A stretch of 32,098 bases of DNA from an uncultured Acidobacteriia bacterium (GTDB lineage: Bacteria; Acidobacteriota; Terriglobia; Bryobacterales; Bryobacteraceae). The translations under genes were made by a program, and so were the position numbers. The notes under the pieces were generated by a model. The model did no database searches, was not told the origin of the DNA, and saw nothing but the letters and a program-made list of their open reading frames with translations. The DNA lies in contig CAIRXZ010000183.1 in assembly GCA_903882645.1 (NCBI GenBank), positions 1-32,098 of the forward strand. The letters run 5' to 3'. Below, one piece after another: positions 21,725 to 30,456 of the stretch (its first letter is position 1; each line of letters begins with the position of its first letter).

Positions 21725-24700
21725 TCAGAACCTCACTCGCAAAGTCGCTTGCAGGCTGCGCATGGCGTTGGCGGTAGTCGGCAGCCCGAACTGCGCGCTG
21801 GTCACGGTCGTGTTCCAGGAGGGATACGTGACGTGGTTCAGCGCGTTGTAGGCGTCAAACCGCAGATCGACCCTGTCGAACGTTCGCGCCATGGAGGCGT
21901 TCAGCCCGAACTGCGCCGGGCCGGCAATCGAGTTTCTCCCGGCATTGCCCCACTGGCCCGCCGCGGGAGCCCGGAACGCGGCCGGATTCAGATAGCGGCC
22001 CGCCCCGGTCGGGTTGAGCGTTACCCCGGTGGCATCCGGCCGGATGGTTCCGGTGACGCCCGTTCCCTGTACCGCTGTGAGATAGACCGGCGTCTCGGGC
22101 AGACCCGTGCCGGCCGTGATCTGTGTGACGAAGGTCCACCCCTTCGCCAGTGCGCCCGTCCAGCCGCGCAGAAGCGTGCCTCCTCCGACTCCCATCCCGG
22201 TGGTGTACTGCCCCTGCACGCTCAACAGGTGGCGCTGGTCGAAGTTCGAAGGCCCCCGTTCGGCGCTCAAGTCGAGCCAGTTCTGCGCGATCAACGAGCC
22301 TCCCTGGCCCCGTCCGCCCAGCGCCGCGTCGTCGAACGATCTCGAGAACGTGTATTGGACGCTCCCGGCGAAACCGTTGTGCATGCGCCGCCGCAACTGG
22401 ATCATCCCGGCCTCGCGCGTCGAATTGCCGTTGGAAGTCAGGTACGCGAATCCCGCCGGACACGTGGGACACGGGTTCGCCGCGCCGATTGGATAAGTAT
22501 TGGGCAGAAATACCTGGGCGCCGCGCGTCCCTTTGATTCCGAGATATGTCAGCGTCATGACCGTGGAGTTAGTCACGTCCTTCTGCACCGACGCCTGCCA
22601 GTTCTGCGAGTAGCCCACCCGGAAACTCGGATCGATGGCGAAGGTGTTGGGCGTGCTTGCGGGAGAAGCGTTGAACCCATTGGCCAGCGTCAGCGGATTC
22701 CCGGGGCTGTTCTGAACGCTCAGGCTCTTCGAGAGCGGGGATTGCTGCGCCATCTGCGGCGCGATCGATTGGTACACCGAAGTGTTGTAGTAGACCCCAT
22801 ACCCGGCGCGGACCACCATCGACGATGCCAGAAATGGGTGCCACGCCAGCGCAATGCGCGGTTCGAAGCCGTGTTTGTCCGGTTGAACCAGGGACGCCGG
22901 ATACTTTTGGCGGGTCAGCGCGCCCGTCGGACTGCTGCCCAGCACCGGCGCCACGGCCGTGAAGCCCGGCGCTATATCCAGGTTCACCAGGCGGCCGTAT
23001 CGTTCGCTAATCGGCGAGCCGTATTCCCAGCGCATCCCCGCGTTCAGGGTCAGCCGCGGACTCACTCTCCAATCGTCCGTGAAAAAGCCGTCCCACATCG
23101 AAGCCCGGAAGTACTTATCGGCGTTGCCGAAAGCGATGGAGCTGGTGTCTGGAATTCCCAGCAGGAAATCGGCGAAGTCGCTGCCGGTTCCGGGCGCCGG
23201 AACCCCGTTCAGGATCGCTTGCGTGGCCGCTCCGGTGAAGGTAAAAGTGCCGCGCGGGTCCTGTTGCGACAAGTAGTTGAATTGCTGCCGCCGGAAATCG
23301 GCGCCAAACGAGAAGTTGTGCGGCCTGGGCATCCACATCCCCGAAAAAGTCAGCGCGCTGGTCTGCGTGCGCGTGAAGGACTGCTGGGCGTCCGAGATCC
23401 CCGCGATGCCGCTCGAAAAGTTGAGAGCCGGCGGGCCCCAATTCAAAGGCTCCTGGTCGTTGCCCGTGATGCCCGCGTCGCCCGAAACGTTAATTCGGTC
23501 CGCGAAGTACGGCGTGGTGCGGTTGGCCGCCCGGCTGTACTGGTAACCCAGGCTTGTGTTCAGCCGCTGCCCGAAAATGTGCCGCCAGGTTCCGCTGGCG
23601 GTCAAACCATTCATGCCGGCGTCGTCCACAAAACCCAGCAGGTTCGGGCTCGTGGTGGTGCTCCTCTGATACGCGAAGTTGCCGTTTACGAAGTTCTTTG
23701 AATTGAGCGTCCGGTTCACGCGCGATTGCACAGCGTCCTGGCTGGTGACGCCGACGATCGGAATCTGGTAGTTGTACGCGCCGCCGCCCCCGAAATTCGG
23801 CTGCGGGTAGAGGCTCAGCAGGGCCTGCGCCTGCGGGCTGATCCGCTGGGCGATCGAATTGCCGGGGATCGGTAACCTCGTCGTGGGGTCGTAAAGCTGC
23901 ACGGGTTGCCCGAGGGGACTGAGAACCTGCGAGAAATCGCCGCCCCGCATCGCAAGCGTTGGCATCAGACCGCTCTGCGTGCTGGCATTGCGGTTCCGCG
24001 TTCCCTGGTAGTTCAGAAAGAACTGGCCGTTGCTGCGCAGCACGTGAGGAATCATTAGCGGGCCTCCGAACGATCCCCCGAAGCGAGCGTGGCTGTAGGC
24101 CGGCTTGAGAGTATCCTGCCCGGTCAACGAGAAGGCGCGCGCATCCAGTGCGGAGTTATCCAGGATGAAACTCACGTCGCCGTTGTACCGGGAGCCAAAG
24201 CCTTTACGCGCATTGCCGATGGCCCGTCTCTCCACCCGGTTGCTCACGCTCCCGTTCACCACCATGGCATCGGCGGCGTTCTGATTGGAATCGCCCGCCG
24301 CCGAGACCAGGCTTGCTTCCTCACTCGCGGCCCCGGCGTCTCCCGATGCGTTCACGTCCGCCCGCTGAAAGCCGGTTTGCGCGTTTGTTGGAGGAGCGGC
24401 CGCGGTCTTTTTCCCGTTTGCTTTCGCGCTGGTGGGCTGCACGGCGCCGGGAGACGCGGCCGTCGCCGGCGCGCTGGCCACAACGGGCCCCGAGGCCGCC
24501 GGCGCCGGTGGCGCCTTCGTCGTGTCGGCCTTCATCGCATCGAGCGGCAGCAGCTTCATTTCCCATTCCGGACTGGGCGCGTTCGGCGCGATTCCCACCT
24601 CCTGTTTGAGCGTGGCGAAGCAGAGCATCTCGACCTGGATCGTCCAGACCCCATCCGCCAAGTCGGGGAAAGAATAGAGGCCCTGCTGGTCGGTGACGGC

Positions 24701-24859
24701 GGTCAGTTTCTTGTCGCCCTGCATCGCCGTCACGGTGGCGCCCGGAACCGGGAGGCCGCCGAATTTCACCTGTCCGTGGTGCTCGGACGCCGCCAGCCCG
24801 AAGACCGCCAGACACGTCAGAATGGAATACCACAGGTACTTACGATTGCGTCTCCACAT
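21725..24859 (-). CDS. TonB-dependent receptor-like outer-membrane protein (Oar type)
   Basis: A 1044-residue protein from ATG 24859 (MWRRNRKYLWYSILTCLAVF, signal peptide); an in-frame TTG 16 codons upstream is a less likely start. A short carboxypeptidase-regulatory-like domain (PVPGATVTAMQGDKKLTAVT) is followed by a long Ala/Pro/Thr-rich linker (about 110-195), then plug-like and barrel regions with FGGSFGGPLMIP, FFLNYQGTRNRN, repeated aromatic-rich strands, and a C-terminal end QATLRVRF with the terminal aromatic residue expected of outer-membrane barrels. A CPTCPAG stretch sits in one loop. It is likely an importer or surface receptor of unknown ligand, made together with the VWFA protein 3 nt downstream, which suggests a joint envelope function. 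Confidence 0.86.
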   Translation of the reverse strand: MWRRNRKYLWYSILTCLAVFGLAASEHHGQVKFGGLPVPGATVTAMQGDKKLTAVTDQQGLYSFPDLADGVWTIQVEMLCFATLKQEVGIAPNAPSPEWEMKLLPLDAMKADTTKAPPAPAASGPVVASAPATAASPGAVQPTSAKANGKKTAAAPPTNAQTGFQRADVNASGDAGAASEEASLVSAAGDSNQNAADAMVVNGSVSNRVERRAIGNARKGFGSRYNGDVSFILDNSALDARAFSLTGQDTLKPAYSHARFGGSFGGPLMIPHVLRSNGQFFLNYQGTRNRNASTQSGLMPTLAMRGGDFSQVLSPLGQPVQLYDPTTRLPIPGNSIAQRISPQAQALLSLYPQPNFGGGGAYNYQIPIVGVTSQDAVQSRVNRTLNSKNFVNGNFAYQRSTTTSPNLLGFVDDAGMNGLTASGTWRHIFGQRLNTSLGYQYSRAANRTTPYFADRINVSGDAGITGNDQEPLNWGPPALNFSSGIAGISDAQQSFTRTQTSALTFSGMWMPRPHNFSFGADFRRQQFNYLSQQDPRGTFTFTGAATQAILNGVPAPGTGSDFADFLLGIPDTSSIAFGNADKYFRASMWDGFFTDDWRVSPRLTLNAGMRWEYGSPISERYGRLVNLDIAPGFTAVAPVLGSSPTGALTRQKYPASLVQPDKHGFEPRIALAWHPFLASSMVVRAGYGVYYNTSVYQSIAPQMAQQSPLSKSLSVQNSPGNPLTLANGFNASPASTPNTFAIDPSFRVGYSQNWQASVQKDVTNSTVMTLTYLGIKGTRGAQVFLPNTYPIGAANPCPTCPAGFAYLTSNGNSTREAGMIQLRRRMHNGFAGSVQYTFSRSFDDAALGGRGQGGSLIAQNWLDLSAERGPSNFDQRHLLSVQGQYTTGMGVGGGTLLRGWTGALAKGWTFVTQITAGTGLPETPVYLTAVQGTGVTGTIRPDATGVTLNPTGAGRYLNPAAFRAPAAGQWGNAGRNSIAGPAQFGLNASMARTFDRVDLRFDAYNALNHVTYPSWNTTVTSAQFGLPTTANAMRSLQATLRVRF

Positions 24860-24941
24860 TAGAACGTCTGTATCCAATCTGCTTTCGTGGCGCCGATCGA
24901 ACCGCAACCGTTGGCAGGTTGCCGAAAAACACTTCTTAGCG

Positions 24942-25347: not shown

Positions 25348-25429
25348 AGTGGCGCAGACGATCCTTTTTCGTCGTCTGCGTCTTGTCCTGCGAGCTGGCA
25401 GGCCACAAAAAACGATGGCCTGCCCCACT
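25348..25429. repeat. Inverted pair of REP-like hairpins
   Basis: The plus-strand unit starts AGTGGCGCAGACGA and has a 9-bp stem (25353-25361 with 25372-25380). The minus-strand unit starts AGTGGGGCAGGCCA at 25429 and has a 9-bp stem (25416-25424 with 25397-25405). Each loop is 10 nt with a T or A tract. The pair ends 16 nt from the stop codon of the neighbouring TIGR03435 gene and could also act as its terminator. Confidence 0.7.
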
Positions 25430-25445
25430 GCCTTGGCGATATCAT

Positions 25446-26189
25446 TCAATTTGCCGAGGGCTTCTCGGCCTTGTCGATGATCAGGACCTCAACCGGCCCT
25501 TTGGCGGTTTCCAGTTTCAGCCCAAGCTGCTCCTGAAGCGCGCTGAAGATGGATGGGCCGGTGTCGGGATTGTTATCGATCGCGTAATCCAGCTTGAAGT
25601 CGTACTCGCCCTTCAGCCCCGTCCGGTCCAGCACGGGACGCGCCTCGATTTCCGCCAACCGGCCGGCCAGCATCGCCATGGAGGCCTTTTGGCCGGTTTG
25701 GGTATAGCTCACACCAGGCAGTTCAGGCGGCGTGTTCCGAAAGAGGCGCATGTAGGAGTCCTGGGCGGTCGATTCCTTGAGCTTGGGCCCGCCCTTCGCG
25801 ACCACCAGCGCGTATACGTCGCCTTCGCGGGTCTCGCGGTGGACCTTCAGTTGGAAGCGTTCGGCCAATAGCGTCCGCAGCATCGCCATCATTTGCTCGC
25901 GGCTGGGGTTGCCATCCGCTTTGGCCTCGATATCGAACCGGTCGCTTTCGAGCCAACGCGGCCCGCCCGAGATTTGATAGTGCTTGACCGTGAAAGCCTC
26001 CCGGATAATCACCTCCAGGGTCAAGTTCGTCATCGTGAGCCTTCCGCCCGGATACGTGCGGAAATCCGCTGCCTCGTTTTGAGGGGCCGGCTTGACCGAG
26101 GCCACCTCGAAAGCCGGCGGAGGCGCGGCGTTCTGTGCGAAAGCGGCGCATACCGCAAAAGCCGCCAAGCCAAGCATTGCCCGGATCAT
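25446..26189 (-). CDS. Secreted TIGR03435-family protein (paralogue 3 of the cluster)
   Basis: A 247-residue protein with a signal peptide (MIRAMLGLAAFAVCAAFAQ) followed by the FEVASVKPA opening shared by all four copies here. Then come the LEVIIREAF and YQISGGPRWLESDRFDIEAK boxes, MMAMLRTLLAERFQLKVHRE, ALVVAKGGPKLKE, VLDRTGLKGEYDFKLDYA and the end VEVLIIDKAEKPSAN. TIGR03435 is a family expanded in Solibacter-like soil bacteria with no established function. ATG 26189 is well supported: GAGGGAGGA lies about 8 nt upstream. Last gene of the minus-strand cluster, 80 nt after the preceding paralogue; the shortest copy, lacking the insert of the other two between the GGPKLKE and DRTGL boxes. Confidence 0.85.
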   Translation of the reverse strand: MIRAMLGLAAFAVCAAFAQNAAPPPAFEVASVKPAPQNEAADFRTYPGGRLTMTNLTLEVIIREAFTVKHYQISGGPRWLESDRFDIEAKADGNPSREQMMAMLRTLLAERFQLKVHRETREGDVYALVVAKGGPKLKESTAQDSYMRLFRNTPPELPGVSYTQTGQKASMAMLAGRLAEIEARPVLDRTGLKGEYDFKLDYAIDNNPDTGPSIFSALQEQLGLKLETAKGPVEVLIIDKAEKPSAN

Positions 26190-26269
26190 GGTTGCGATTC
26201 CTCCCTCATACAGTAAAACGGACGCCTCGGTTGGTTCGTTGATATCATTTCCTTCAGCATCCATTTCAG

Positions 26270-27169
26270 TTAGTTCTCGGTCGGCGTCCTGTTCACCTTG
26301 TCGATAACCAGCACCTCAACCGGGCCTTTCTTGGACTCCAACTTCAGCCCAAGCTGACTCTCTAAGGCGGCGGGGAGAGTCGGAGCGGGGTCGCTCACGG
26401 CGTCCAGCACGCCGGCTTGTCCGGACGGCGGCTCCGGAGCGGCAGGCGGGCCGAAGTAGACCATTTTGGCCGGATCCGGAGCAAAGAAAAGACTGAAGTC
26501 GTAGGTTCCCGTCAGTCCGGTCTTGTCCACCACTTTGCGGCCCATTTGGGGCTCCAGCATATTGAGCAAGCGGGCGACGGTCTGCATCCTGGCCAAAACG
26601 TGCACAGTTCCATCCAGTGGGAATGCCATCATTCTCGGGATGCCGGGCGGCAGCATCGGCAAGCCGTCTTTGTCCCTTGACATCCGGGGGCTTCCGCCGG
26701 CAGCCCGTTCGGCCTGGGCCGGGGACGGCTCGCCGGCTGGGGCCTTTTCGGGATCCTTCAGTTTCGGTCCGCCCTTCGCCACGACCAGCTCGTAGTACGG
26801 GAGGTCTCTCATTTCCCTGTGGACGGCCAGGCCGAAGCGCTCCACCAGCAGGTTCTGGAGCATCGGATTGAACTGCTCCTTCGTGGCGCCTGGCGGCATC
26901 TTCGCGGTGATGTCGTACCTCTCGCCATCGATCGAAGACGGGCCGGCAAGCTGGTCGGATCTGAGGTCGTACGCCCTCAGCAGAAGCGTTTTTAGCGTGA
27001 TGTGGGTGCAACTGAATTGTGCCGGGTCCATCCCGCACCAGAAATCCGGGAGATTCGTGGGCGCGGCCGGCTTGACCGAGGCTACCTCGAACACTGGCGC
27101 GGGCGCGGCGATCTGGGCGAAAGCGGCGCACGCCGCGAAGACCACCAAGCCAGGCATCAATCGAATCAT
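26270..27169 (-). CDS. Secreted TIGR03435-family protein (paralogue 2 of the cluster)
   Basis: A 299-residue protein with signal peptide (MIRLMPGLVVFAACAAFAQ) and the family boxes FEVASVKPA, LKTLLLRAYDLRSDQLAGP, FNPMLQNLLVERFGLAVHRE, YELVVAKGGPKLKDPE, VDKTGLTGTYDFSLFF and the end VEVLVIDKVNRTPTEN. An insert of about 45 residues rich in Pro, Gly and Met follows the GGPKLKD box. A CxxxxxxxC pair in its early part (WCGMDPAQFSC) resembles the CTSCTL region of the M56 fusion protein. ATG 27169 follows GGGAGG by 5 nt. Its leader and first codons are very similar to those of the next paralogue upstream, which points to a tandem duplication. Confidence 0.87.
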   Translation of the reverse strand: MIRLMPGLVVFAACAAFAQIAAPAPVFEVASVKPAAPTNLPDFWCGMDPAQFSCTHITLKTLLLRAYDLRSDQLAGPSSIDGERYDITAKMPPGATKEQFNPMLQNLLVERFGLAVHREMRDLPYYELVVAKGGPKLKDPEKAPAGEPSPAQAERAAGGSPRMSRDKDGLPMLPPGIPRMMAFPLDGTVHVLARMQTVARLLNMLEPQMGRKVVDKTGLTGTYDFSLFFAPDPAKMVYFGPPAAPEPPSGQAGVLDAVSDPAPTLPAALESQLGLKLESKKGPVEVLVIDKVNRTPTEN

Positions 27170-27240
27170 CCGAACCTCCCTGTCCGCCGCGCCCGCCGCG
27201 TTCCACGCATAACGGCGTCCCGTCGCGGCATCCTCTTGCT

Positions 27241-28155
27241 CTAGTTCTCCGTGGGGACTTTGTCTGCACTGTCGATGACCAGCACGTCGACTGGTATACC
27301 CTGCGCTGTCTGCAACTTGAGCCCGAGTTGCTTCTCAACCGCAGTGAAGATGCTCGGAGCCTCGCCCGGGTCACGTGCCACAGGCACCCCCGTTTCTCCA
27401 TCGGCCGGGGCTGAGGGCGGCCTCAGGCCATCAGCGAATTCAAGACGGATCTCGTATATTCCGGTCAGCCCGGTTCTATCGACCACCCTGGCCTGTCGGC
27501 CCTGAAGTGTTCCGTTCGACGAATTGATCATGGCCCCCAACGCCCGGCAGAAAACAGCCATGGAGTCTCTGTAAACAACCCGGAAAACCGGTGAGCCTCC
27601 CGGTGTTAACGCCCTCGAATTCGCGAAAAAAGTGCCGCTTGGAGGCAGCGTTGAAAAACCATTCGCATCACGGCCGGGATGGTAATCCGGGGCATTGGCC
27701 GCGGGAGTCCATTCTTTCAGCTTCGTTCCGCCCGCGGCTACTACGAGTTCATACCCAGGCCGGCTCTGGGTTTCATGATGAAGGCGCACGTGGAATCGTT
27801 CGGCCAACAGGTTCTGCAGCATCATCCGGAACTGCTCCTTGGTCGTATTGGGAGGCATTGTGGCATCGATGGTGTACCGGTACTCTGGACTATTGAGCCA
27901 GTCGGGCCCCGAGACTTGGTCGCCGACCGCGCCGTAGGCTTCCGCCAGCAGGTAGGACAGCGAAGCCCGCGGAAAGGTGACCCGCCCGGGGTCGCCGCTG
28001 CCAGGGCCACCTACCATGCCGCCCGTGGGACTGCCGTCAACGTGCTGGCCGGCCGGCTTGACCGAAGCAACCTCGAAAGCCGACGGAGGCGCGGCGTTCT
28101 GCGCGAAAGCGGCGCACGCCGCTAAAGCCACCAAGCCGGGCGTCAGTCGAATCAT
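27241..28155 (-). CDS. Secreted TIGR03435-family protein (paralogue 1 of the cluster)
   Basis: A 304-residue protein with signal peptide (MIRLTPGLVALAACAAFAQ), FEVASVKPAGQ, a Gly-rich stretch (SPTGGMVGGPGSGDPGRVTF), ASLSYLLAEAYG, FRMMLQNLLAERFHVRLHHE, YELVVAAGGTKLKEW, VDRTGLTGIYEIRLEFADG and the end VDVLVIDSADKVPTEN. ATG 28155 follows GGGAGG by 5 nt; the 18 codons in frame upstream are not conserved. It lies 80 nt after the stop of the M56 fusion gene on the same strand with no terminator seen between, so I infer one operon. Function unknown; a secreted or periplasmic location is predicted. Confidence 0.87.
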   Translation of the reverse strand: MIRLTPGLVALAACAAFAQNAAPPSAFEVASVKPAGQHVDGSPTGGMVGGPGSGDPGRVTFPRASLSYLLAEAYGAVGDQVSGPDWLNSPEYRYTIDATMPPNTTKEQFRMMLQNLLAERFHVRLHHETQSRPGYELVVAAGGTKLKEWTPAANAPDYHPGRDANGFSTLPPSGTFFANSRALTPGGSPVFRVVYRDSMAVFCRALGAMINSSNGTLQGRQARVVDRTGLTGIYEIRLEFADGLRPPSAPADGETGVPVARDPGEAPSIFTAVEKQLGLKLQTAQGIPVDVLVIDSADKVPTEN

Positions 28156-28235
28156 CTGGACCTCCCTGTCCGCGGAGTTTGCCGTTTTCCAAGAATAACG
28201 GCGCTCCACCGCACCATTTTGTAACCACCAAGCCT

Positions 28236-30020
28236 TTAATTCTCGGTCGGGGCCTTCTCAACATGGTCGATCACCAATACATCGGCCGGAACCTTCCTCT
28301 TCGGCTCCAGCTTTAGTCCAAGCTTCTGTAGGGCTTCGGAAAGCGTTGGCAGGGGCGTGCTCGCCACGGGAAGCTCTCCGCCCGGAGCACTGGGCCGCTC
28401 AGGCAACTCCAGCGCCCAATACAGTACGAAATCGTATTTCCCTTTGAGGCCGGTCGCGTCGGCGACGGGTTTCTGCAAGTCTCGCGTCAACTCGCGCGCC
28501 AGTTGTCCCATGGACGCTTTGCCAGCCACAGTGCTAAACAGGGCATCGCCGTTCCTGAAGCTGAATACCCCGTCCGCGGGGTAGCCGGGCGGGACGACCA
28601 CGAAACCATCCCTACCTACAGTGGTCCTCGGGCGGTCGTCTTGCGGTAGGTGCGCCGACTCCGCTGCAACGCCTTCCTTTAGTTTAAAGCCACCCTTCCC
28701 AGCTACCAGGGCATAGCCCGGCATGTCCTTCTTCGCACGGTGGAAGACCAACTTGAACCGCTCCGCCAAGAGGTTCTGAAGCATCAGCCGAAACTGCTCC
28801 TGCGTGGCGCCGTCTGGCACCTTCGCGGTGATTAGGAGTTCCGCGTCCAGCCAAGTGGGGCCCAAAAGCTGATACTGCTCGATGTCGTACGCTTTCAGCA
28901 CGAGGTCCGACAAGGTGCAACTCGTGCACCGGACAAGGCCGGGGGATGACGTTCCAGGGCCGCCCGACAACAGTGTGCGGAGCCTAATTCCGTTGGCAGA
29001 GCCAGGCGGAGAGAGCTTGACGGATGCCGCTTCGAATTCCGGACGGGCCTGCGCCCGGCCCCGCGCCGGATTCAGCAAGCCAACTACAATTGGCACAGCG
29101 ATGACCAGGATCGCCGCCACCGCCAGCGCCATTCTCTTCCCAAAACTCAGCTTGCGCGCAAATTGATTCGCCATGATTCCCTCGATTCTCTTCTTGAGCT
29201 CTCCGCCGGTGACGCCGGCCGCGCAAGCCACGGGCGACGTCAGATAGAACTCGCAGACCTTGAGGATGCTCTCGGCGTAGACTTGCGGCTCACGGCCCAT
29301 CCGCATCACTTCCTCGTCGCAAGCGCGCTCGCGCTCCTCCATCAGCCGCGCCCTGATCCACCACGCCAGCGGATGGAACCAGAAGACGGTTTCCACCAGC
29401 ATGTGAATCGCGGCCGTCAGATTGTCTCGCCGCTGGACATGGCGCAATTCGTGCGCGAGAATCGCCTCCAACTGCGGCGGCGTCAGGCGCTCCGTGATGC
29501 CTTCGGGCAGCAGCAAGACCGGTTTCACGATGCCGACAACGCCCGGTTCCAGACGCGCGCGAGACGACATCACTTGGATAGGCAGGTTCAGATCGAGCGG
29601 CGTCGCCGCGCGCTTCACCGCGCGAAGTTGCCGCCACCACCGCATCCAAAAGACGACGCCGATCGCGATGCCGCAAAGCCAGACTCCGAACAGGATAGCT
29701 GGCAACGGGTTCAGGGCCGGCGCCGCAACCGGCGGCAGAGGCGCTGGGGCGGCGACCGCAAAGGGCTGGCCGATCTCATCCATCGCGAAGGAGAGTTGCC
29801 AGTGCGCGATGGCGGGAGCGGTTCGCCATCCCAGTTGCGCGCCGGCGCTCACCAGCAACGAAAAAGGGATCAGGAACTTCACCGACGCCGCCAGCCAGAT
29901 CCAGTACCGCACGGCCGCGCGGTTCTTCCGCAGCGCCAGCGTCAACAGCCACGCCACGGCGCCGAAAAGAGTCGATTGCCAGAGATGGTTCGCCAAGGGC
30001 GATAGATCGGCAGAAGTCAT
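28236..30020 (-). CDS. BlaR1-like M56 membrane peptidase fused to a TIGR03435 domain
   Basis: A 594-residue protein. Membrane segments lie at about 13-30, 37-57, 107-127 and 297-317. Between the last two is a cytoplasmic M56 zinc-protease domain with HELRH (190-194) and the downstream acidic ACDEEV (233-238), which supplies the third ligand. In BlaR1/MecR1 this protease becomes active when the external C-terminal domain binds beta-lactam, and leads to cleavage of BlaI/MecI. Here the C-terminus (327-594) is not a penicillin-binding domain but a complete TIGR03435 domain: FEAASVKLSPPG, LKAYDIEQYQLLGPTWLDAE, FRLMLQNLLAERFKLVFHR, YALVAGKGGFKLKEG, DATGLKGKYDFVLYW and ADVLVIDHVEKAPTEN. Its ATG overlaps the stop of the BlaI-like gene by 4 nt. 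The ligand is unknown. Confidence 0.9.
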   Translation of the reverse strand: MTSADLSPLANHLWQSTLFGAVAWLLTLALRKNRAAVRYWIWLAASVKFLIPFSLLVSAGAQLGWRTAPAIAHWQLSFAMDEIGQPFAVAAPAPLPPVAAPALNPLPAILFGVWLCGIAIGVVFWMRWWRQLRAVKRAATPLDLNLPIQVMSSRARLEPGVVGIVKPVLLLPEGITERLTPPQLEAILAHELRHVQRRDNLTAAIHMLVETVFWFHPLAWWIRARLMEERERACDEEVMRMGREPQVYAESILKVCEFYLTSPVACAAGVTGGELKKRIEGIMANQFARKLSFGKRMALAVAAILVIAVPIVVGLLNPARGRAQARPEFEAASVKLSPPGSANGIRLRTLLSGGPGTSSPGLVRCTSCTLSDLVLKAYDIEQYQLLGPTWLDAELLITAKVPDGATQEQFRLMLQNLLAERFKLVFHRAKKDMPGYALVAGKGGFKLKEGVAAESAHLPQDDRPRTTVGRDGFVVVPPGYPADGVFSFRNGDALFSTVAGKASMGQLARELTRDLQKPVADATGLKGKYDFVLYWALELPERPSAPGGELPVASTPLPTLSEALQKLGLKLEPKRKVPADVLVIDHVEKAPTEN

Positions 30021-30403
30021 TGCGGTTTATCCTTTCTCGCAGGCTTTCGCAGGGCCTTCTCGGCCTCTTTCACGTCATCCAGCGTGATCTCGCCCGCCTC
30101 GACCAGGTGCGCCATCACCAGCTTGCCTCGGCCGCCGAGCAGCGCCAGCAGTTCGTCGATCAATCGGCGCTGCGCGTCGTTGCGAGAGATCGCGGCCGCG
30201 AAAATATTCGCGTTGCTGATCCGCTTGACGCAGCGGAGGGCCTTCTTCCGTTCCAGGCGATAGACGACAGTCTGCACGGTCGTATAGGCCGGCCTGCCGG
30301 GCTCGGGAAACGTTTCCTGAACCTCTCGAACGGAGCAGGCGCCCTTCTGCCAGAACGCCTCCAGGACTTGCAGTTCCAACTTCGTCAGTTTTGGGAGAGC
30401 CAT
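30017..30403 (-). CDS. BlaI/MecI-family transcriptional repressor
   Basis: A 128-residue protein. The N-terminal winged helix-turn-helix (KLTKLELQVLEAFWQKGACS, then VREVQETFP, and the recognition helix AYTTVQTVVYRLERKKAL) is typical of the BlaI/MecI family; the C-terminal helices form the dimerisation part (DAQRRLIDELLALLGGRGKL). These repressors bind TACTACA-type dyads and are removed by proteolysis when the M56 partner is activated. ATG 30403 (MALPKLTKLELQ) is preferred to the in-frame TTG three codons earlier and has AGG about 9 nt upstream. A dyad resembling the BlaI operator lies in the promoter just upstream. First gene of the five-gene cluster. Confidence 0.93.
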   Translation of the reverse strand: MALPKLTKLELQVLEAFWQKGACSVREVQETFPEPGRPAYTTVQTVVYRLERKKALRCVKRISNANIFAAAISRNDAQRRLIDELLALLGGRGKLVMAHLVEAGEITLDDVKEAEKALRKPARKDKPQ

Positions 30404-30427
30404 GTCAATCAACCTGTGGCAAGATTT

Positions 30428-30456
30428 AGTCTACTACCATGATAGTCAGATTGCAA
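30428..30456 (-). promoter_or_regulatory. Promoter and BlaI-type operator of the blaI-M56-TIGR03435 cluster
   Basis: On the minus strand TTGCAA (30456-30451), a 17-nt spacer and TAGACT (30433-30428) form a plausible sigma-70 promoter about 25 nt before the ATG at 30403. The dyad ACTA-ccatga-TAGT (30433-30446, near-palindromic over 14 nt) fills the spacer and runs into the -10 element; TACTAC at 30432-30437 is identical to the half-site of known BlaI/MecI operators. I infer autorepression. No similar dyad was seen before the three downstream TIGR03435 genes. Confidence 0.6.

Follow-up and report, generated by a model that had tools for sequence, protein, structure and literature searches.

The 32,098-nucleotide (nt) stretch analysed here (the window), from an uncultured Acidobacteriia bacterium, carries on its minus strand a cluster in which a gene for a BlaI/MecI-type repressor is followed by one for an M56 membrane metalloprotease with a C-terminal TIGR03435/DUF3738 domain, and then by three stand-alone TIGR03435 genes. 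The features are collected in Table 1. An earlier note, made from the letters alone, had described this arrangement, including the ATGA overlap of the first two genes, the HELRH motif of the protease and the gaps of 80, 71 and 80 nt that precede the three stand-alone genes, and all places and families are confirmed. The repressor reaches 79.9 bits against a Penicillinase_R cut-off of 22.6 in the Pfam scan. The M56 domain (PF05569) scores 115 bits with HELRH at residue 190, and the last strongly hydrophobic segment of the protein, residues 298-316, lies just N-terminal of the TIGR03435 domain, a position that fits an external sensor. Pfam reports DUF3738 there and no penicillin-binding family, in agreement with the replacement that the note had proposed. 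The three stand-alone proteins each begin with an apparent signal peptide, as judged by eye. The four TIGR03435 domains score 206-254 bits against a cut-off of 40 (and 130-202 bits against 22 for PF12543), which excludes a chance match. They are mutually 43-47% identical, and so are not recent duplicates.

The cluster very probably runs on into a gene for an outer-membrane barrel. A strong stem-loop, with no T run after it, lies between the third stand-alone TIGR03435 gene and the barrel gene, and is possibly a partial terminator or a processing site. A scan of the window for promoters and terminators gave one promoter-like site, where 1.0 is expected, and 11 terminator-like sites, where 7.6 are (standard deviation 2.6), none of them informative. 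The genome from which the window comes has 21 TIGR03435 matches, seven M56 and eight BlaI genes. The window M56 gene is the only one of the seven that is fused to or beside TIGR03435, so that from this genome alone the case for a system would look weak.

Table 1. Features of the BlaI/M56-TIGR03435 operon and its surroundings in the window
Feature	Position	Strand	Details
BlaI promoter with embedded putative operator	30428-30456	-	TTGCAA 30456-30451, 17 nt, TAGACT 30433-30428
Putative operator ACTATCATGGTAGTAGA	30446-30430	-	Inside BlaI promoter
BlaI/MecI-type repressor	30017-30412	-	Penicillinase_R, PF03965, 79.9 bits; probable start ATG 30403
M56 (BlaR1-type) membrane metalloprotease with C-terminal TIGR03435/DUF3738 ectodomain	28236-30020	-	Pfam, NCBIfam
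Protease/sensor junction, where similarity to the same-genus homologue L290 breaks	29042-29052	-	blastn match ends 29047, domain border 29042
TIGR03435/DUF3738 domain of the M56 fusion	28239-29042	-	221.8 bits
Stand-alone TIGR03435 protein 1, apparent signal peptide	27241-28155	-	ATG 28155
Stand-alone TIGR03435 protein 2, apparent signal peptide	26270-27169	-	ATG 27169
Stand-alone TIGR03435 protein 3, apparent signal peptide	25446-26189	-	ATG 26189; domain modelled (pLDDT 96)
Strong stem-loop between stand-alone TIGR03435 gene 3 and barrel gene	25397-25424	-	-23.3 kcal/mol over 57 nt, z -2.5
Outer-membrane barrel, CarboxypepD_reg + OMP_b-brl_4	21725-24907	-	Pfam; probable start ATG 24859

Comparison of genomes supports the tendency of TIGR03435 genes to adjoin M56 genes, on which the earlier note had made its reading depend. 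TIGR03435 occurs in nine of 31 genomes. When fragments are merged and fused domains included, 19 of the 105 TIGR03435 places lie within 5 kb of M56, where uniform placement would give about 1.3, and 12 of the 44 M56 places in the TIGR03435-bearing genomes have TIGR03435 nearby. A search of named genomes returned at least 80 TIGR03435 loci, all titled as Acidobacteriota taxa except one titled 'bacterium'. An M56 gene is present in 18 of the 80 loci listed, and in 15 of these 18 it is fused in frame to TIGR03435, several with tandem TIGR03435 genes downstream. Many genera have the operon, and the M56 clade, the operator class and the barrel are conserved over several families of the class. In Granulicella mallensis X5P3, for example, three TIGR03435 genes, an operator, BlaI, M56-TIGR03435, a further TIGR03435 gene and the barrel lie one after another in this order. 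Most stand-alone TIGR03435 copies are solitary. One genome of the same genus as the window (G002) has 61 TIGR03435 matches, many of them fragments, which suggests rapid gain and decay of paralogues.

The most constant partner of the TIGR03435 operon is the barrel, which had been overlooked. Scanning of the neighbours finds a single kind of barrel (CarboxypepD_reg + OMP_b-brl_4) downstream of the TIGR03435 genes, that of the window included, and seven other aligned barrels, at least two of them partial, are 51-60% identical to the window protein. Among 31 relatives an orthologue (at least 1500 bits) is found once each in six genomes, in all six on the same strand as TIGR03435 and downstream of it. 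A class-wide search at E up to 1e-280 gave matches in 101 of 399 genomes. We inspected the region upstream of 56 barrel loci, comprising 54 of the 111 class-wide match rows and two from the search of relatives; one of them lies at a contig edge. TIGR03435 is present upstream on the same strand in 51 of the 55 testable loci, mostly as adjoining or overlapping open frames, and in nine of these loci the gene directly upstream of the barrel is the M56-TIGR03435 fusion itself. Eight further barrel places include six with a clear upstream TIGR03435 gene, one with a 34-bit remnant (L300) and one, a weaker relative, with none (L308). By contrast, TIGR03435 is absent from the flanks of all 21 weaker barrel relatives (0/21), of which several are truncated at the end of a contig. 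Among the 25 commonest families listed, the barrel is the only one shared beside M56-bearing loci (66 of 70 chosen neighbour open reading frames, ORFs), and the neighbours of solitary TIGR03435 genes (89 of 336 ORFs within 3 kb, from the first loci) share no family. The system proposed in the earlier note is right in outline, yet incomplete without its dedicated barrel; with the barrel included, the signal more likely comes from the outer membrane than from a free ligand.

The phyletic pattern was examined in the same way, its counts being those of related genomes and not of independent events. All 20 barrel genomes searched contain TIGR03435; for ten of these the TIGR03435 gene next to the barrel was already known when they were chosen, while the other ten (six relatives, and four genomes whose barrel has no TIGR03435 nearby) were chosen without such knowledge. 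Of 42 genomes lacking the barrel, six contain TIGR03435, with one or two matches each. The 42 comprise 25 relatives and 17 genomes of the class-wide set, for which the TIGR03435 limit was E 1e-20; the class-wide TIGR03435 search covered 31 genomes. The minimal form of the system, BlaI, M56-TIGR03435 and barrel, is found in one genome (G324, locus L269), where TIGR03435 has no match other than the fusion at E up to 1e-20 and the barrel comes directly after this fusion. Free copies are therefore not required. The reverse also occurs: two loci (L275 and L285) have stand-alone TIGR03435 and the barrel with no M56 gene seen in 6-7 kb.

In the window a near-palindrome, the putative operator, sits between the -35 and -10 elements of the BlaI promoter. 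This promoter matches the consensus at eight of 12 positions and is omitted by the consensus scan, the limit of which is nine. Of 29 distinct M56 + TIGR03435 operons, part of which had served for picking the word, 18 have TAGTAGA in the 160 nt that precede BlaI (0.55 expected by shuffling), and none of 30 other BlaI-M56 pairs has it there. Among nine operons fetched after the word had been picked it is present in six. Solitary TIGR03435 genes have it upstream no more often than chance predicts, with two occurrences in 116 (2.05 expected by shuffling), so the regulon seems to be the operon itself; we do not see the solitary copies under the control of this operator. In the genome of the window a longer operator pattern has two exact matches, where we estimate about 0.6, one in the window operon and one at C93:13158-13174 (L170). 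With up to one mismatch there are four matches, versus two for the reversed control. The match on C93, a contig where M56 has no match, lies some 6 kb away from a BlaI gene (C93:19290-19577). Since most copies are solitary and have the operator word at chance level, the earlier notion of free and tethered versions of one receptor holds for the operon copies and not for the solitary majority.

The protease and the sensor appear to differ in their descent. A quickly built tree of 61 M56 domains unites in one clade all 21 fusions assigned to the TAGTAGA class and L290, the upstream region of which is cut off by its contig. Assignment to the class rested on the operator or on belonging to a barrel operon, so that a few members have variant operators. 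This clade of 22 rows has a Shimodaira-Hasegawa-like approximate likelihood-ratio (SH-aLRT) support of 100. The M56 part of the class has a common origin, and that of the window lies in the clade. The other six fusions are spread over three or more positions among M56 proteins that lack TIGR03435, so the domain has been joined to M56 more than once. On the tree of TIGR03435 domains, which is weakly resolved (64 of 135 branches open), the fused ones are scattered and require 19 changes for 22 rows, nine of them forced by well-supported branches. Shuffled labels require 20.8 changes on average and as few as 19 in 60 of 500 shuffles; the fused rows are thus neither clearly more scattered nor clearly more clustered than such labels.

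The fusion of the window and its homologue L290 from the same genus are 87% identical in M56 and 41% in TIGR03435, and a comparable drop is seen when L143 is compared with L147 or L152. The pairs L152/L147 and L283/L277 have 70-83% in the sensor at 80-85% in M56 (over 119 M56 columns for L152/L147). Across 20 operons, identity in M56 correlates with that in TIGR03435 weakly, if not at zero (rho = 0.22, permutation p = 0.06), and with that in BlaI with rho = 0.38 (p = 0.005). The close pairs speak for exchange of the sensor; the residual correlation with TIGR03435, the poor resolution of the domain tree and the result with shuffled labels speak against it. Exchange of the sensor is suggested as the simplest reading of the contrast between the window and L290, and uneven or fast divergence could mimic it. 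It is conceivable, and we put this forward tentatively, that M56 descends vertically with the operator and the barrel while recombination with the secreted and solitary TIGR03435 paralogues of the genome gives it a new ectodomain time and again, altering the signal to which the outer-membrane circuit answers. Some at least of the solitary copies would in that case serve as a repertoire of donors.

The TIGR03435 and DUF3738 family entries state no function. Neither name was found in the open-licence PubMed Central (PMC) articles searched, which is no proof of absence from print, and open-licence searches there on combined topics returned no article concerning a BlaI/M56-TIGR03435 operon. The structure prediction that had been advised gave a confident model of the domain alone, taken from the third stand-alone protein, with a predicted local distance difference test (pLDDT) score of 96 and a predicted template modelling (pTM) score of 0.86, yet matched no known fold. 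Foldseek against the PDB returned nothing with E below 0.3, VIA-align no Z above 3.7, and comparison with viral structures nothing below E 0.2; a sequence search of the PDB gave chance rows only, none below E 0.1. The model has two similar alpha/beta halves, which align end to end with P = 1.9e-4 and a probability of 23%. Trimmed halves give P = 0.024 where control pairs give 0.026-0.4, so that an internal duplication is weakly supported. Repeats of the STN/secretin type had been suspected from the order of strands and helices. Kinship is unsupported: hhalign against a shallow set of 30 STN domains, which we take to be mostly PilQ-like, gave E values of 0.35-0.58, and neither STN nor a secretin N-domain is among the Foldseek or VIA-align rows listed. 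Proteins with two tandem TIGR03435 domains also exist (L098 and L135), that of L135 being an M56 protease with a double ectodomain.

Taking the parts of the operon together with their order and recurrence, the operator word, the co-occurrence with the barrel and the common origin of M56, we propose BlaI/M56-controlled signalling across the envelope, in which it is the state of the dedicated outer-membrane barrel, or its cargo, that the TIGR03435 ectodomain senses. We favour this reading with moderate confidence. BlaI would bind the TAGTAGA-type operator overlapping the -10 box and so repress the operon, its own gene included. The M56 protease would lie in the inner membrane, exposing its zinc site to the cytoplasm and its TIGR03435 domain to the periplasm, and both tethered and secreted TIGR03435 would bind the periplasmic face of the barrel or its cargo. 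A change in the state of either would lead the tethered domain to activate the protease, BlaI would be removed, and more TIGR03435 protein and barrel would be made. In BlaR1 the external domain switches on the protease and BlaI is removed (PMC7593790); membrane topology, protease activation and BlaI cleavage are assumed here to follow the BlaR1/MecR1 family. It is genetic linkage that suggests a contact of TIGR03435 with the barrel and the kind of signal, and both the ligand and the direction of the response are our supposition. As the barrel is the constant genetic partner, it or what it imports is the most likely thing to be sensed.

A number of observations weigh against this reading. Between the last TIGR03435 gene of the window and the barrel gene lie 538 nt and the strong stem-loop, so that co-transcription of the barrel with the operon is not assured. 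Four barrel orthologues (in G349, G367, G555 and G418) have no TIGR03435 within 6-7 kb, their genomes having it elsewhere. Conversely, one genome (G006) has a fusion and no barrel, and another (that of L154) has a fusion of the main clade with no barrel match at E up to 1e-250. At L314 an operator word, BlaI, three TIGR03435 frames and the barrel are found with no M56 gene detected. The exact word TAGTAGA is missing in 11 of the 29 operons, and its choice from some of the operons counted belongs on the same side. Pfam reports neither a plug nor an STN domain on the barrels of the window, L105 and L152, and a barrel model from eight sequences (pLDDT 42) is too poor to show a plug.

TIGR03435 might instead bind a soluble ligand, as the earlier note had supposed, the tethered copy signalling while the secreted copies buffer, carry or compete for it and the barrel serves as an output gene or an uptake pore. 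The recurrence of BlaI and M56-TIGR03435 with tandem stand-alone copies, and the apparent signal peptides of the latter, would suit such a scheme. Yet the minimal form in G324 has fusion and barrel without stand-alone copies, L275 and L285 have stand-alone copies and barrel where no M56 gene is seen, and what stays constant is the barrel rather than the number of free copies. We regard a soluble ligand as unlikely, if worth keeping in view. A role in envelope quality control, in which TIGR03435 proteins serve the barrel as chaperones or assembly factors in the periplasm while the fused copy reports unfolded barrel, making a stress circuit instead of a receptor, would account for the tight coupling to a single barrel, for the periplasmic location that the topology implies and for the high copy number in some genomes. 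It would hardly predict that the weaker barrel relatives in the same genomes lack a TIGR03435 neighbour throughout, which makes a general chaperone unlikely, nor that the neighbours of the solitary copies share no family among those listed. On balance we find quality control rather improbable.

The BlaI/M56 architecture itself would suggest a sensor of cell wall or beta-lactams, in which TIGR03435 has replaced the penicillin-binding domain and kept its job, and Foldseek and VIA-align do return weak rows to PBP5-type enzymes, none of them significant (E at best 0.38, Z about 3). Across 123 aligned TIGR03435 domains, however, no serine reaches 90% conservation. The best, Ser7, which reaches at least 90% in an alignment of 20 sequences, stands in S-x-K and not S-x-x-K, and no penicillin-binding or beta-lactamase family is found in the window proteins or among the 25 commonest neighbour families listed. 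This makes such a sensor very improbable. We give equally little credence to genomic hitch-hiking, in which a fast-duplicating TIGR03435 lands beside or inside genes and the operon is a chance survivor. Copy number is indeed high and variable with many fragments, and the fused domains are scattered on their tree, but one M56 clade, operator class and barrel have been kept over several families of the class, and the search that started from the barrel, with its 51 of 55 loci, disfavours chance.

Other M56 proteins bear on the signalling that we propose. Five of the six others in the genome of the window were scanned; three end in TonB_C (L024, L025 and L027), their genes adjoining BlaI genes, and one in GWxTD (L023). 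Acidobacterial M56 proteases thus seem to carry many different ectodomains. At L126:6107-8257 one frame directly after an M56 frame encodes CarboxypepD_reg, TonB_C and DUF3738, and its product is a TonB-TIGR03435 protein, unless a frameshift has divided one M56 protein in two. TonB_C in these proteins is a hint that M56 proteins here may deal with outer-membrane receptors.

We conclude that the operon belongs to the BlaI/M56 type, to which it adds an outer-membrane component of its own and perhaps a sensor that can be exchanged. The known role of BlaI/BlaR1 is that of an antibiotic switch. Like BlaI-BlaR1 and MecI-MecR1, the operon has a repressor gene overlapping an M56 gene with HEXXH, a sensor C-terminal to the last membrane segment and a putative operator over the promoter. 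Unlike them its sensor is TIGR03435/DUF3738, it is linked to TIGR03435 genes and an outer-membrane barrel in a Gram-negative envelope, and its M56 protein scores 88.7 bits against blaR1_generic (NCBIfam), short of the cut-off of 400. In SusC/SusD-type pairs of Bacteroidota an outer-membrane barrel is encoded right beside an exported partner protein. The operon has the same adjacency of barrel and exported partner genes, but the TIGR03435 leaders look by eye like those for signal peptidase I and not lipoprotein leaders, the domain has no PDB sequence match below E 0.1, and the order of the partners and the regulation differ. All four window domains belong to the TIGR03435/DUF3738 paralogue family, of which the operon subset gains a regulatory and outer-membrane context. 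This provides a genetic context for a family present in tens of copies in some Acidobacteria, and so opens its function to tests in cultured strains.

Cell-surface signalling by a TonB-dependent transducer, an anti-sigma factor and an extracytoplasmic function (ECF) sigma factor (PMC7593790) would resemble the proposed system in joining an outer-membrane barrel, an inner-membrane protein and regulated proteolysis to transcription. It differs in that BlaI and the M56 protease take the place of sigma and anti-sigma factors and that Pfam finds no STN domain on the three barrels scanned. Among the 25 commonest of 73 neighbour families (66 neighbour ORFs) there is no ECF sigma or anti-sigma family. 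If our reading is correct, a BlaI/BlaR1 core rewired to a barrel would be a further route from the outer membrane to the genes beside sigma/anti-sigma signalling.

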